From NCBI RefSeq assembly GCF_004342485.1, contig NZ_SMBU01000004.1, positions 124,001 to 188,000 of the forward strand: DNA of 64,000 bases, written 5' to 3'. The DNA comes from Roseateles saccharophilus (GTDB taxonomy: Bacteria; Pseudomonadota; Gammaproteobacteria; Burkholderiales; Burkholderiaceae_C). The first letter of the stretch is position 1. Each line of letters opens with the position of its first letter. A program made the translations under genes and the position numbers. Positions 14,300 through 19,532 of the stretch are shown piece after piece. Below the pieces are notes generated by a model that saw only the letters and a list, made by a program, of their open reading frames with translations, had not been told where the DNA came from and did not search any database.

Positions 14300-15255
14300 G
14301 CGAATTGCACAAGTTCCTGTTCGACGGCCTGCCGGTGCGCGGCATGCTGGTGCGCCTGACCGGCGCCTGGCGCGAGGTGCTGGCGCGGCGCGAGCCCGGC
14401 CACGAATACCCGCCCGAACTGCGTGACCTGCTCGGCGAGATGAGCGCGGCGGCCGTGCTGATGCAGGCCAACATCAAGTTCAACGGCGCGCTGGTGCTGC
14501 AGGTCTTCGGTGACGGCCCGGTCAAGCTCGCCGTGGCCGAGGCCCAGCACGACCTGACGTTCCGCACGACGGCCAAGTGTGTCGGCGACATCCCGCCGGG
14601 TGCGACGCTTGAGGGCATGCTCAACCTGCATGGCCACGGCCGCTGCGCGATCACGCTGGACCCGCGCGACAAGCTGCCCGGCCAGCAGCCCTACCAGGGC
14701 GTCGTGCCGCTGCACGGCGACCGGCGCGAGCCGCTGCAGAAGATGAGCGAGGTGCTGGAGCACTACATGCTGCAGTCCGAGCAGCTCGACACCCGGCTGG
14801 TGCTGGCCGCCAATGGCGACTTTGCCGCGGGCCTGCTGATCCAGCGCCTGCCGGTCGAGGGCGAGGGCAACCTTGAAGGCAAGAAGAATGAAGACGACAT
14901 CGGGCTCTCCGACGCCTTCAACCGCATCTCCATGCTCGCGTCCACGCTGACCTCCGAGGAGCTGTTGACGCTGGACGCGGACACCATCCTGCGCCGCCTG
15001 TTCTGGGAGGAGACGGTGACGCGCTTCGAGCCGCTGGCGCCACGCTTCGCCTGCACCTGCTCGCGCGAGCGGGTTGCGCAGATGCTGCGCGGCCTGGGCC
15101 GCGAGGAGGCCGACAGCGTGCTCGCCGAGCGTGGCGACATCGAGATCGGCTGCGACTTCTGCGGCCGGCATTACCGCTTCGACGCCGTCGACGTCGGCAT
15201 GCTTTTCACGACCGGCAACGACCAGCCGAGCGGCGCCAGCGCGACGCTGCAGTAG
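14296..15255 (+). CDS. hslO: redox-regulated chaperone Hsp33
   Basis: 319 residues. The N-terminal substrate-binding domain ([15 protein letters not shown], then [15 protein letters not shown]) is followed by the redox switch: Cys253 and Cys255 (CTC) with Cys286 and Cys289 (CDFC), which bind zinc when reduced and form disulfides under oxidative stress to activate holdase function. It is cytoplasmic. [19 protein letters not shown] is the linker region. The gene overlaps the carbonic anhydrase stop by four bases. Ends in TAG, showing that TAG is a normal stop in this genome. Confidence 0.96.
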
Positions 15256-15364
15256 CCGCGGGCATCCCGACTTCTGAGGATGTCCGCCAGCCTAGTGATT
15301 GACGGCCCCGGGCCGAGCTGAGACTTTCTGCGCCTGGCCCCTTGTGCAAGGGCAGGAGGCGACG

Positions 15365-18300
15365 ATGGCGGACTCCAAGGGCGGCGTGCTCGGCAGCTTT
15401 CCGTGGGCGAGCCTGGCGGTGCTGATGGCCTTCGTCGCCAGCACGCAGCTGGTGCCGCATGCCTTCGATGCGCTGCGACCGGCCGAGAAGGCGCGCGCCC
15501 AGGCGCCGCTGGACCCCGACCTCGAGATCAATGCCAGGCTCTGGGAGGACCCCTTCGCCGCGCTGCGCCGCTATGAGCTGGAGCGCTCCGAGCGCTGCGA
15601 GCGCCAGCAGAAGGCCTCGCGGCCGGTAGATGGCGACTGCAGCCGGCAGATGCCACGGCTGCGCGACCCGCGCAACCTGCTGGCGCGGCTGGACGCCGAC
15701 CAGAACCAGCGCATGGACGACATCCTCGTCATCCTGGCCCTGATGCCTGGCGCCGACTTCGTCGGCGCCGAGGAGGCGCGGCGGCGCATCCGCTATGCGA
15801 CGCTGGCCGGCCTGCTGGCCCAGGACTATGTACCCGACAACGCCGAGCGGCTGAGCCTGCTGGAGTTCAGGCTGCTGGATGCCCAGGCCGAGGCCGGCGG
15901 CCCGGGCTATATGGTCCCCTACGAGCTGCTGTCGCTGCGTCGCCCGGCCACCGAGCAGCCGCCCTCGCGCTATGCCCAGGTGGCGCTGCTTTGGGTGGAC
16001 GAGACGGCGCTGCCGCTGCGCAAGCTCGATGCCGTGGCGCGGCTCACCGAGCAGCTGATGGGCCGTGAGGCGCGCGAGCGCGCGCATCTGCGCTTCAGGT
16101 TTGATGCCCAGGACGTGCTGCCGCGGCTGGCCGTCATCGGCCCGTCCTCCACCGACGCGCTGCGCACCGCGCTGCGCGACCTGCGCTGTGCGGCCGACCT
16201 CAACAACACCGCCGGCATCGGCACCAGCCAACTGGCCGAGAGTGATGCGGTGCGCTGCGCGCGCCGCGGCGAGGATGTGCGGGCGGGCCTGCCGGCCGAC
16301 GTGCTGGCCGGCTACCGGCTGCTCGCCCGGGCGGAGTTCTACAACCCGTCGTCCACGGCGCCCGAGCGCATGCTGCCCGAGCTGCAGGGCTATACGCGTG
16401 CCGTGACCGGCCTCGACGACGGCCTCGATGCCTTCCTGACCCAGCATTTCAGCCGCCTCACCGGCGCCCAGGGCAGGCCGCCGCCGGTGCACATGCTGCG
16501 CACCGTGGGCAGCGACGCCGACCTGATCGACAAGCTGGTGGCGGAGCTGAAGTTGCGCCTGCCACAGCGGCACCGCCGCGTCGTCATCGTCGCCGAGCGT
16601 GATTCCATCTACGCCCAGGCGCTGGTGGAGCAGTTCCGCGACGACCTGCCCGCGGATCTGCAGAAGAGCCTGCGCGTCATCTACTTCTTCCGCGGCATCG
16701 ATGGCGTGACGACCAAGGATGCGAACGCCGCTGCGGCACTGGCCACCGCGGCGGACAAGACGCCGCCGCTGGAGTGGCCGGAGAGCCGCGACCAGCTCGA
16801 CTATCTGCGCCGCCTGGGCATGGAGCTGCAGCGCAGCGAGAGCGGCAACGGCGACATGCCCATAGGCGCCATCGGCATCTTCGCCAACGACGTGCATGAC
16901 AAGCTGCTCGTGCTGCAGGCCCTGCACGAGAACTTCTCCGACCGCATGTTCTTTACCACGGACATGGACGCGCGCTACCTGCACCCGCGCACCCAGGCCT
17001 TCACGCGCAACCTCATCGTGGCCAGCAGCCTGCCGCTGGCCTTCTACCCGGTTCCGCCCGAAAAGGCCGGCAGCGCCCTGGACCTGCAGGCCGGCACGCC
17101 GCCGCTGCGCGACATCTACCAGACCAGCACCTATGCGGCGGCCCGCCGCGCCGGCTGCCGCAGCGATCCCTGCAAGCAGCGAGAGGGCAGGGCGCTGGAC
17201 GAGGTGCTGAAGCACACCTCGGTCTACGAGATCGGGCGCTCCGGCACGGTGCCGCTGTCGGGCTATGCGCTGGAGCGGCGGCCGCCGCAGAGTTCGATGG
17301 GCCGCGTCTTCGTCGCGCTGCTGATGGCGGCGGTGTTCGGCTGCATGCTGTTCGCCTGGCCGTCCACACCCTCGATGCGCCAGGCCCGGCGCGTGCTGCT
17401 GCCGCGCAGCCCCGGCGAGGCGGCCATGCGCATGGAGCCGACGGCCATCATCCTCGTGACCATGCATGCGGTGCTGCTGTCCTACGGCATGTTCAGCCTC
17501 GTCGAGTTCGTGCTGCCGGGCCGCATGAGCTTCGGGCGTGCGCCGCTGCTGGCCGCGCTGGCCGCCGGCGCGGCCCTGCTTGTCGGGCTGACCGGCTGCA
17601 AGTCCGGCGGGCAGCGCCGGCCGACCGCGCTGCTCACCGCGGGGCTGGCGCTGCTGGTGACCACCTGGTTGGCCCTGGCCTGGCCAGCCGGGGGCTGGCG
17701 GCCGGGCGGCATCTGCCCGACCTGCGAGCCCACGGTGTGGCTGGAAGGCGTGAGCGCGTGGCCCTCGCACCTCATCCATCTGCTCGCCCTGTTCACGCTG
17801 CTGTGGACGCTGGACTGGGCCTGGGCCGACAGCCAGGAGCAGCTGTGCCGAGATTCCGACTGGCTGCACCTGCCCAGGCCGCCCGAGCACCCCAGCGTGA
17901 CGGCGCTGCTGCGCAACTGGTTCTCCACGGTCAGCGTGCTGTTCTGGAAGCCGGGCGTCGGCTACAGCTGCGACTTCAAGCAGCTGTGGATCGAGTACGG
18001 CGAGCGCGGCGAGGCCTCGCCGCGCTCGGCGCGCACGCTGTTCTGGTTCACGCTGACGCTGGGCGTCGTGACCCTGCTCTTTCTCGGCCTGAATGACGGC
18101 CAGATCCCGGAGGTGCCGGCGCGCGGGCGCGAGTACCGCGGCCTCGTGCGCGTGACGCTCTACGCGGCACTGCTGCTGCTGCCGCTGCTCATCGTCGCGG
18201 TGGCCGACGCGACCGTGCTGCTGACCCGCTTCGTGCGCCATCTCAACGTCGGCCGCAGCTTCTACCCCGACGAGACCATCGAGCTCTTCGCCAAGGCGCT

Positions 18301-18844
18301 GGGCAGCGAGCACCAGGACCTGTGGGCGCAGCGTTTCAGCGCCCGCCCCGAAGAGCGCGTGCAGGGCCGTGGCGGCTTCGCGATGCACACGCTGCTGGAC
18401 GACTGGATCGACGTGCAGGTCGTGGCACGCCGCAGCGTGCCGGTCGCGCGCCTGGTCATCGGGCCCTTCGTCGTGCTGGCCCTGCTCGTCGTCGCGCGCA
18501 GCCGGCTGTTCGACAACTGGTCGCTGACGCCGGCCATCGCCGTCGGCGTGAGCTTCTACGTGGCGACGCTGATCGGCCTGACCTTCCTGCTCAAGCAGGC
18601 GGCCGAGAACGCGCGCAGCCGCGCGCTGGAGTCCATGCAGGCCGACCTGCGCTGGCTGGCCGGCTGCGGCGCGCCGCTGGCCGGCCTGCAGGAACCCTTC
18701 AAGCGGCTGATCGCCCAGGTCGAGAACGAGCAGAAGGGAGCCTTTGCGTCCTTTTTCGACCAGCCCCTGCTCAAGGCGCTGCTGGTGCCGCTGGGCGGCG
18801 CGGGCGGCACGCAGCTGTTCGACTACCTGCTGCTGGGCCGCTGA
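15365..18844 (+). CDS. large polytopic membrane protein of unknown function with a binding-protein-like soluble domain
   Basis: 1159 residues from ATG 15365 (AGGAGG seven bases upstream). One N-terminal membrane segment (about 12-30) is followed by the motif RLWEDPFAALRRYE and a soluble region of about 600 residues. Around 375-545 it alternates strand and helix like a type-1 periplasmic-binding or receiver-like Rossmann domain: RRVVIVAERDSIYAQALVEQF, LRVIYFFRGIDG, IGAIGIFANDVHDKLLVLQAL and MFFTTDMDARYLHP. Then come about nine membrane segments (645-666, 692-718, 725-744, 755-777, 802-821, 891-912, 928-955, 1026-1050, 1053-1078) and a cytoplasmic-looking tail. Cysteines occur in pairs (CRSDPC, CPTC). 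I do not recognise the family; it might be a ligand sensor or transporter. It stands alone between Hsp33 and a small unknown gene. Confidence 0.9.
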   Translation: MADSKGGVLGSFPWASLAVLMAFVASTQLVPHAFDALRPAEKARAQAPLDPDLEINARLWEDPFAALRRYELERSERCERQQKASRPVDGDCSRQMPRLRDPRNLLARLDADQNQRMDDILVILALMPGADFVGAEEARRRIRYATLAGLLAQDYVPDNAERLSLLEFRLLDAQAEAGGPGYMVPYELLSLRRPATEQPPSRYAQVALLWVDETALPLRKLDAVARLTEQLMGREARERAHLRFRFDAQDVLPRLAVIGPSSTDALRTALRDLRCAADLNNTAGIGTSQLAESDAVRCARRGEDVRAGLPADVLAGYRLLARAEFYNPSSTAPERMLPELQGYTRAVTGLDDGLDAFLTQHFSRLTGAQGRPPPVHMLRTVGSDADLIDKLVAELKLRLPQRHRRVVIVAERDSIYAQALVEQFRDDLPADLQKSLRVIYFFRGIDGVTTKDANAAAALATAADKTPPLEWPESRDQLDYLRRLGMELQRSESGNGDMPIGAIGIFANDVHDKLLVLQALHENFSDRMFFTTDMDARYLHPRTQAFTRNLIVASSLPLAFYPVPPEKAGSALDLQAGTPPLRDIYQTSTYAAARRAGCRSDPCKQREGRALDEVLKHTSVYEIGRSGTVPLSGYALERRPPQSSMGRVFVALLMAAVFGCMLFAWPSTPSMRQARRVLLPRSPGEAAMRMEPTAIILVTMHAVLLSYGMFSLVEFVLPGRMSFGRAPLLAALAAGAALLVGLTGCKSGGQRRPTALLTAGLALLVTTWLALAWPAGGWRPGGICPTCEPTVWLEGVSAWPSHLIHLLALFTLLWTLDWAWADSQEQLCRDSDWLHLPRPPEHPSVTALLRNWFSTVSVLFWKPGVGYSCDFKQLWIEYGERGEASPRSARTLFWFTLTLGVVTLLFLGLNDGQIPEVPARGREYRGLVRVTLYAALLLLPLLIVAVADATVLLTRFVRHLNVGRSFYPDETIELFAKALGSEHQDLWAQRFSARPEERVQGRGGFAMHTLLDDWIDVQVVARRSVPVARLVIGPFVVLALLVVARSRLFDNWSLTPAIAVGVSFYVATLIGLTFLLKQAAENARSRALESMQADLRWLAGCGAPLAGLQEPFKRLIAQVENEQKGAFASFFDQPLLKALLVPLGGAGGTQLFDYLLLGR

Positions 18845-19052
18845 AGGCGGGGTGCCGGCCGCACCGGCTGCGATTTCAAGCCCTAGAACCGCGGGCGGCC
18901 CCGCCCGCCGTCATGCGTCCATACGATGGTCTTCGCTGTGAATGCGACTAGCCTTCCCGTTAGGACGCGATGCACGCTTGCGGGCAGTTGCTCGACATCG
19001 GAACCCGTCTGGCGACCCGGCATCGCCTTGCATGCCGGCCTCGGAGCATGCA

Positions 19053-19532
19053 ATGAACTTCGACTCTCGTTTGCTGGCCCTGATCGGGCGGCGCCTGCCG
19101 GCCATCTTCGACGTCATCCCGCGCGGGCCCCAGGCCGTGGCGGGCCTGCAGGACAGGCTGGCCGAACTGGCCATCAACCCGCAACCCCTGCCGCCCGGCC
19201 CGCCCGAGCGCCTGGGCGCGGCGCTGGCCCAGGAGTTCGCCCACATGGCCTGGGTGGCCGACCGCCTCGGCGCGAACTGGAAGAGCATGGCCCAGGATCT
19301 GGACGACTGGTGCCCGACGGCGCCGCGCAAGATCAAGCTGCCGGTCGGCTGGCCGCCTATTCCCGAACCCGAGCCGCATCCGAACTGGCTGGCGGAACTG
19401 CATCTGGGTTTTGCCGCCAAGCTGGCGTCGATCTCGGCCGAGCACGCCGGCAGCAACTTCGCGGCGACGCTGGACCGGGCCGTCGGTCGCTCGGTCGACG
19501 CGATATCGCAGTTGCAGATGCCGACGCGCTGA
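19053..19532 (+). CDS. small protein with an NPQPLPPGPPE motif, unknown function
   Basis: 159 residues, ATG 19053 with GGAG six bases upstream. The sequence is mostly helical with a striking INPQPLPPGPPER stretch (about 47-59); proline strings of the NPQPLPP type recur, as I recall, in unrelated uncharacterised bacterial proteins. A second Pro-rich stretch, WPPIPEPEPHPNW, follows near 105. No signal peptide or membrane segment is visible. It lies 208 bp after the 1159-residue membrane protein on the same strand; an ATGC-rich leader without an obvious promoter separates them. Function is unknown; a partner role to the membrane protein is only a guess. Confidence 0.75.
   Translation: MNFDSRLLALIGRRLPAIFDVIPRGPQAVAGLQDRLAELAINPQPLPPGPPERLGAALAQEFAHMAWVADRLGANWKSMAQDLDDWCPTAPRKIKLPVGWPPIPEPEPHPNWLAELHLGFAAKLASISAEHAGSNFAATLDRAVGRSVDAISQLQMPTR

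Follow-up and report, generated by a model that had tools for sequence, protein, structure and literature searches.

The window analysed here is a 64,000-nucleotide stretch of Roseateles saccharophilus DNA (contig NZ_SMBU01000004.1, positions 124,001 to 188,000), and this report concerns the gene at window positions 15365-18844 on the forward strand, which encodes a protein of 1159 residues (P0001) that appears to belong to an unnamed family of membrane receptors. As proposed in an earlier note made from the sequence alone, the long frame with its clean ribosome-binding site is a real gene: it contains no internal stop, AGGAGG lies 5 nt upstream of the ATG, and homologues were found. A match was present in 15 of the 19 other genomes of the genus, 14 of them carrying the gene as a full-length single frame. 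Distant relatives retain RLWxDPF, E.D..Y, RG.DG, Q.DYLRR, F-F-T-D.DA, a GISxWP-like motif, P.RG and FDNW. The spread within the genus and the retention of these motifs indicate that the frame is more than a chance long frame. An antisense open frame of 1060 aa (15206-18388, reverse strand) overlies the gene. As the forward frame is conserved in protein relatives that share 22-30% identity outside the genus, the antisense frame is taken as its shadow. The gene lies downstream of hslO (recognised by eye) on the same strand and is followed on its 3' side by a small gene encoding an NPQPLPPG protein and then by a convergent nadR-like gene. The statement in the note that no accessory genes are adjacent apart from the NPQPLPPG gene is fair for the window. 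The features of the gene and the predicted parts of its product are the following:

15354-15359, + strand: ribosome-binding site AGGAGG (sequence; 5 nt before the ATG at 15365)
15365-18844, + strand: receptor gene, 1159 residues, P0001 (uninterrupted frame; homologues)
15404-15451, + strand: predicted N-terminal membrane anchor helix, residues 14-29 (model, with low local confidence there; hydropathy)
15536-15556, + strand: RLWEDPF signature, residues 58-64, with the highest conservation among the segments compared (alignment)
15716-17278, + strand: predicted type-1 periplasmic-binding (Venus-flytrap) domain, residues ~118-638 (model, VIA, Foldseek; hhalign for lobe 1)
17294-17365, + strand: predicted linker membrane helix, running out to in, residues 644-667 (models, hydropathy)
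17438-17512, + strand: putative core helix S1, residues 692-716 (alignment, model of the membrane half, hydropathy)
17531-17680, + strand: optional helix hairpin, residues 723-772, modelled with low confidence and missing in the same-genus loci L051/L052 (alignment, model, hydropathy)
17720-17767, + strand: conserved, presumably periplasmic loop with GVSAWP (GISxWP in the family), residues 786-801 (alignment, entropy)
17759-17863, + strand: predicted core helix S2, residues 799-833 (models)
18014-18091, + strand: predicted core helix S3, residues 884-909 (models)
18128-18250, + strand: predicted long core helix S4, residues 922-962 (models)
18398-18496, + strand: predicted core helix S5, residues 1012-1044 (models, entropy)
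18497-18520, + strand: conserved, presumably periplasmic loop RSRLFDNW, residues 1045-1052 (alignment, entropy)
18530-18664, + strand: predicted long core helix S6, residues 1056-1100 (models)
18677-18724, + strand: predicted cytoplasmic half-helix S7a, residues 1105-1120 (models)
18764-18838, + strand: C-terminal membrane helix S7b, residues 1134-1158, a candidate pore helix, broken at 1145 (hydropathy, models, entropy)

P0001 matched no model of Pfam, NCBIfam or PADLOC (anti-phage defence) at E values up to 1 and no PDB sequence. No high-confidence match to a characterised family, one of the outcomes that the note had named as speaking against its proposal, was obtained for the whole protein. 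The note had described a sensor or transport system of an uncharacterised kind that contains a domain resembling binding proteins, and this description agrees with these searches and with the predicted fold. For comparison within the family, alignment A3 was built with 94 rows from 111 profile matches and the window. It left out the duplicate copies of a locus from one genome, L054, and the partial or broken frames of L044, L082/L043, L109, L110, L115, L143, L149, L155 and the second L163 frame. The full-length model made from this alignment had a predicted local distance difference test score (pLDDT) of 83.5 and a predicted template modelling score (pTM) of 0.83. According to this model, residues ~118-638 form a complete type-1 periplasmic-binding protein (PBP) fold. 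The note had recognised such a fold in an alternating strand/helix segment at residues 375-545; the fold was right and the extent too small. With the program VIA, the binding domain (model range 115-632) aligned with 9jti over 307 residues (Z 19.0, rmsd, i.e. root-mean-square deviation, 3.7). Among the first 50 rows, 49 were binding proteins from bacteria or archaea, or sensors composed of such proteins (Z 16.0-19.0), many of them LivJ-like; row 50 for the full model was a plant glutamate receptor (Z 15.4). Foldseek ranked class C G-protein-coupled receptors (GPCRs) and LivJ-like proteins first for the full model. In hhalign comparisons with 12 Peripla_BP_6 stretches of the organism's own genome, lobe 1 aligned in register (probability 49%, P 1.7e-4), and the membrane half matched none of the same 12 stretches. 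As P0001 lacks a Pfam match at E 1 and the hhalign probability is 49%, the receptor is filed as sharing the fold and not as a member of the Pfam Peripla_BP families. The order noted earlier, with the soluble domain first and the membrane domain last, holds in all 94 near-full-length members aligned, and the N-terminal anchor was detected by hydropathy in 92 of them. The motifs E.DT.YGR and FFTTDLDA are nearly invariant in the family. By analogy they are placed near the ligand cleft, where their conservation suggests one ligand class for the whole family.

Hydropathy detected nine membrane segments in the second half of P0001, in line with the "about nine" of the note. The model contains ten, including the C-terminal helix, plus the cytoplasmic half-helix S7a. 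In place of the hydrophilic tail described earlier, the C-terminus (residues 1134-1158) is hydrophobic. Between the binding domain and GISxWP, hydropathy counted two membrane segments in 79 of the 94 members, four in 13 and another number in 2. Given a periplasmic sensor, this even number of segments in 92 of the 94 members means that a linker helix precedes the core, which is thus predicted to start in the cytoplasm (N-in). S1 was assigned by inference, as the hairpin that follows it is optional. The presumed cytoplasmic loops have mean lengths of 58, 29 and 35 residues, compared to 19, 10 and 11 for the presumed periplasmic ones. The full-length model shows no cytoplasmic signalling domain.

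The membrane half was also folded alone from 84 rows (pLDDT 84.1, pTM 0.85). Rows 1-9 of the Foldseek search with this model were all insect gustatory or odorant receptors (E 0.022-0.23, probability 0.63-0.97). VIA placed Gr43a first (Z 10.0, rmsd 6.2, 310 residues aligned) and returned insect gustatory or odorant receptors in 18 of its first 20 rows; the first other structure was a designed nanoparticle chain (Z 8.2). The predicted fold of the membrane half is therefore closest to that of the insect receptors, which is suggestive and not proven. In Benton and Himmel 2023 (PMC9998090), an N-in core, longer cytoplasmic loops, long helices TM4-TM6 and a split TM7 serve as criteria for this class of seven-transmembrane ion channels (7TMICs). 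The predicted membrane half shares with the insect receptors the N-in core, the longer cytoplasmic loops, the long S4-S6 and the split S7. It differs from them by the large periplasmic binding domain and by the linker and anchor helices, and no sequence similarity to them was found.

PBP domains of the type-1 fold normally serve transporters and fused binding domains are known in ABC (ATP-binding cassette) systems, which would fit a transporter with a built-in binding protein. However, the frames inspected in the window include no ABC ATPase or permease adjoining the gene, and the ABC ATPase cluster found in 18 loci of the neighbourhood comparison has one copy within 2.5 kb. Near the top of the structural matches of the membrane half no substrate transporter appeared, a membrane pyrophosphatase (probability 0.12) apart. 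A transporter is considered the least probable of the readings discussed here, and of the two possibilities named in the note a sensor is favoured.

Sequence entropy was calculated over 86 rows for columns that were at least 60% filled. The RLWxDPF signature showed the lowest value (0.57), followed by the periplasmic loops with GISxWP (1.56), FDNW (1.71) and P.RG (1.98), the GAFxPF link (1.91), lobe C of the binding domain (2.02), S7b (2.02) and S5 (2.06). The cytoplasmic loops S2-S3 (3.14) and S4-S5 (3.07) and the half-helix S7a (2.98) were, together with S1 and the hairpin, the most variable parts. Conserved periplasmic loops and a conserved S7b next to variable cytoplasmic loops are expected if the binding domain acts on the core from its periplasmic side, with the output made in the membrane and not by a cytoplasmic partner.

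We propose that P0001 is a stand-alone receptor of the inner membrane. Its N-terminal helix would anchor the type-1 PBP domain in the periplasm, and the linker helix would return the chain to the cytoplasm ahead of the seven-helix core. A small solute as ligand might close the Venus-flytrap domain, and the movement might pass via the conserved periplasmic loops GISxWP, P.RG and FDNW to the core, which is assumed to be oligomeric as in insect receptors. A shift of S5 and S7b could then open a pore for ions lined by S7b. That a stand-alone periplasmic sensor drives a seven-helix module in this way, most likely an ion channel, is given somewhat less than an even chance. The narrower proposal, in which a Venus-flytrap sensor and a channel of the insect chemoreceptor type together form a bacterial ligand-gated ion channel, gated unlike glutamate receptors and representing an old prokaryotic branch of the superfamily, is put forward more tentatively.

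Several observations weigh against this reading. None of the Foldseek rows for the membrane half has an E value under 0.001, and the rmsd to the insect receptors is about 6 Å. In the study cited above, accepted 7TMICs reach Dali Z values of 9.1-50.7 against Orco, the authors' cut-off is 10 and their negative controls score at most 4.0 (PMC9998090). The membrane half has a Z of 6.8 to Orco (6c70_A), which lies between the published negative controls and the accepted members and was obtained with VIA, a different program from the Dali used for the published values. Helical bundles with Z values below ~13 can share a mere common arrangement, a caution that applies to the values given here. With the profiles A3 and A4, at E limits of 5 and 10 respectively, the PDB sequences yielded only weak matches and no insect receptor. 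In the comparison of 84 membrane halves with Pfam, no 7tm family occurs among the 25 listed of 114 weakly matching families. The candidate pore helix S7b is poorly modelled, with a pLDDT of about 56-70 in the model of the membrane half and below 50 at residues 1146-1159 of the full model. The six segments expected after GISxWP were found in 50 of the 94 members, as compared to five in 35 (P0001 included) and four or eight in 9, and the positive-inside rule agrees weakly with the topology. S1 (3.05) and the hairpin (3.18) vary as much as the cytoplasmic loops do. Conservation is also seen at individual cytoplasmic positions, namely at 967 and at W875 in loop S2-S3, the latter residue being nearly invariant. 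For the sensor, the profile link to the PBPs is modest.

The conservation of W875 would also suit a Venus-flytrap receptor without a channel, the core of which relays a change of conformation to an unlinked partner in the cytoplasm or in the membrane. Class C GPCRs (mGlu, GABA-B, taste receptors) likewise combine a Venus flytrap with a following seven-helix core and are among the best Foldseek rows of the full model. Histidine kinases lie beside L155, L158 and L039, and the widest neighbour cluster is kinase-like (23 loci in 17 groups, including the HATPase_c gene of L039). However, the binding domain probably accounts for the GPCR match: the membrane half alone yielded one GPCR among the first 50 Foldseek rows (E 0.74) and none among the VIA matches listed. 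Helix parity makes the core N-in, inverted with respect to GPCRs, and conservation in its cytoplasmic loops is among the lowest in the protein. Members of the kinase-like cluster mostly lie three to five genes off and on no fixed side, as would be the case for any very common superfamily. Class C GPCRs differ further by their cysteine-rich domain and their coupling to G proteins. Signal relay to a separate partner is thus regarded as unlikely, though it is the strongest of the rivals to the channel.

Type-1 PBPs (LivJ/AmiC; Pfam Peripla_BP_6 and ANF_receptor) have the entire two-lobed fold predicted for residues 118-638 in common with the receptor, with Z values of up to 19.0 across ~300 residues. 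In contrast to them, the receptor is membrane-anchored and fused to a many-helix membrane half, carries several insertions and has no Pfam match. Ionotropic glutamate receptors also bear binding-protein-like domains outside a membrane channel, and the plant protein in row 50 of the VIA comparison is one of them. The receptor model lacks the second, type-2 ligand domain that is inserted in their membrane part, and none of them occurs in the first 50 Foldseek rows of the membrane half. Bacterial 7TMR-DISM and 7TMR-HD receptors combine an extracytoplasmic domain with seven helices, as the receptor does, whereas the latter has no cytoplasmic kinase, cyclase or HD domain. A paper on conflict systems mentions caspase proteins in which extracellular PBP domains follow TM helices, a different architecture (PMC7159879).

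The literature searched contained neither RLWQDPF nor, among the papers listed, a combination of a 7TMIC with a Venus flytrap; Himmel, Moi and Benton 2023 lay outside that search. This last work reportedly extends 7TMICs across the tree of life and may include members of the receptor family. Both modules are of known kinds; what is new, as far as the searches go, is that they are combined, that the combination is spread broadly among bacteria and that the family has no name. The origin of insect odorant and gustatory receptors is obscure. According to a 2024 review, several lines of evidence support a transfer of 7TMICs from eukaryotes to prokaryotes (PMC11526382). If the proposal is true, a bacterial family in six phyla with a built-in ligand sensor would bear directly on the origin of the 7TMICs, and it would provide a soluble ligand-binding handle on the gating of such channels. 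It would also imply an unrecognised chemical sense in many nitrifiers, methanotrophs, Nitrospira, anammox bacteria and Variovorax. Even without a channel in the membrane half, the proteins would constitute a large unnamed receptor family.

Judged by sequence comparison, this family is widespread. The own genome (5.77 Mb) contains one match. Matches were absent from the 16 genomes of other genera of the family examined and occurred in two of 24 genomes from other families of the order. Searches with the alignment gave matches in 14 of 250 genomes of the order and 8 of 398 genomes of the phylum, the membrane half found 10 of 350 genomes of the class (own genome included), and in the phylum of a Nitrospira genome 41 of 198 genomes matched; each of these four counts takes in the query or centre genome and a small number of weak or broken matches. 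A single scan of species genomes returned 402 pattern matches, of which 288 encode a relative, and 79 distinct loci were kept. They are distributed over six phyla: Pseudomonadota (59), Nitrospirota (11), Myxococcota (3), Planctomycetota (3), Nitrospinota (2) and Thermodesulfobacteriota (1). Many of the carriers are named as nitrifiers, methanotrophs, anammox bacteria or iron oxidisers; as the scan orders its matches by similarity to a zetaproteobacterial query, the observation serves as a lead and not as a statistic. The absence outside a few close strains that the note had considered did not occur. The 28 named genomes searched contain one to three matching stretches each, and the plasmids and phages searched contain none. 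In the FastTree phylogeny a long branch (2.14 changes per column) leads to the genus of the window. When the membrane half was sought without the binding domain in 350 genomes of the class, the frames holding most of it were 1107-1181 aa long, and the rest were short or stop-containing remnants. Such remnants occur in four genomes (G1011, G1050, G1080 and G1167), and the receptor gene may have been lost repeatedly.

Partner genes were sought twice, with raw open reading frames and with our own gene caller set to keep the receptor frame (122 loci and a further 8). No single conserved partner gene was found at the loci examined. The lack of conserved context considered in the note is thus largely real, and the family is nevertheless broad. 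The link to the NPQPLPPG gene that had been suspected there (for 19053-19532; the gene spans 18942-19532, + strand) did not hold up: a homologue is present at 3 of 10 other same-genus loci and at none of 119 others. This gene, which has no Pfam match, is not a general partner of the receptor. Clusters recurring within one lineage, i.e. the mnmC side in Variovorax, the Abhydrolase_2 side in Nitrospira and the hslO and nadR sides in the own genus (some of these names given by eye), were interpreted as synteny and discounted.

Hydrolases were labelled within two genes of the receptor in 12 of the 94 aligned members, with at least 8 changes on the tree. Six of these members have patatins (6 changes). 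Patatin neighbours are supported by Pfam at L119, L165, L166 and L124, the last barely above the cut-off. The patatin of L146 falls below it, and that of L164 has no Pfam match and is similar to the one of L124. Amidase_2 proteins occur at L107, L125, L135, L166 and L167, a papain at L165, a subtilase and a calcineurin-like phosphoesterase at L124, and DUF900 proteins at L125 and L168. Six patatins among 448 near-neighbour genes are more than expected from the background (166 matches in 41 genomes, 1-14 per genome), for a pattern that was chosen after it had been seen. In Nitrospira loci patatins also lie farther from the receptor, and one paralogue is followed by Abhydrolase_2, which is outside the hydrolase count. 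Also unlabelled are L139 (Abhydrolase_2 neighbour) and the hydrolases recognised by eye at L150, L154 and L109; the labels rest on those neighbours that were looked up. At L166:8944-15502 the genes for Amidase_2, Lipase_3, patatin and receptor follow each other on one strand in a compact cassette. In Mariprofundus (L081:6406-16040) a Tle1-like phospholipase, a PG_binding protein (GH19 below the cut-off), the receptor and a PhoD-like phosphatase lie together.

These neighbours could indicate that the receptor acts as the sensing component of cassettes of hydrolases (patatin, amidase, lipase, alpha/beta hydrolase) that function in cell lysis, in defence or in contact-dependent conflict, and that the copies elsewhere are orphans. 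The repeated changes on the tree, the arrangements at L166 and L081 and the defence genes near three members (L118, L083 and L148) support this idea. However, no such neighbour accompanies the gene of the window itself, and the majority of members are unlabelled. The pattern was noticed after the fact with labels that were neither blind nor complete, and a PADLOC scan of six hydrolase neighbours returned no match. Together with the borderline patatins of L146, L164 and L124, this makes the cassette reading improbable. The neighbouring hydrolases may make or release the ligand of the receptor or serve as outputs.

The defence genes mentioned above are of two kinds. In Candidatus Anammoxibacter (L118:4297-8021) a Dsr1-like gene, split into a SIR2 protein of 300 aa and a protein of 941 aa, lies upstream of the family member, and Type IIG restriction-methylation genes occur near family members of two different phyla (L083:6082-9090 and L148:3821-5996). 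In Methylomonas sp. LW13 (L111:5223-6578) a protein of 451 aa near the family member matches both the VipA and the VipB sheath families of the type VI secretion system.

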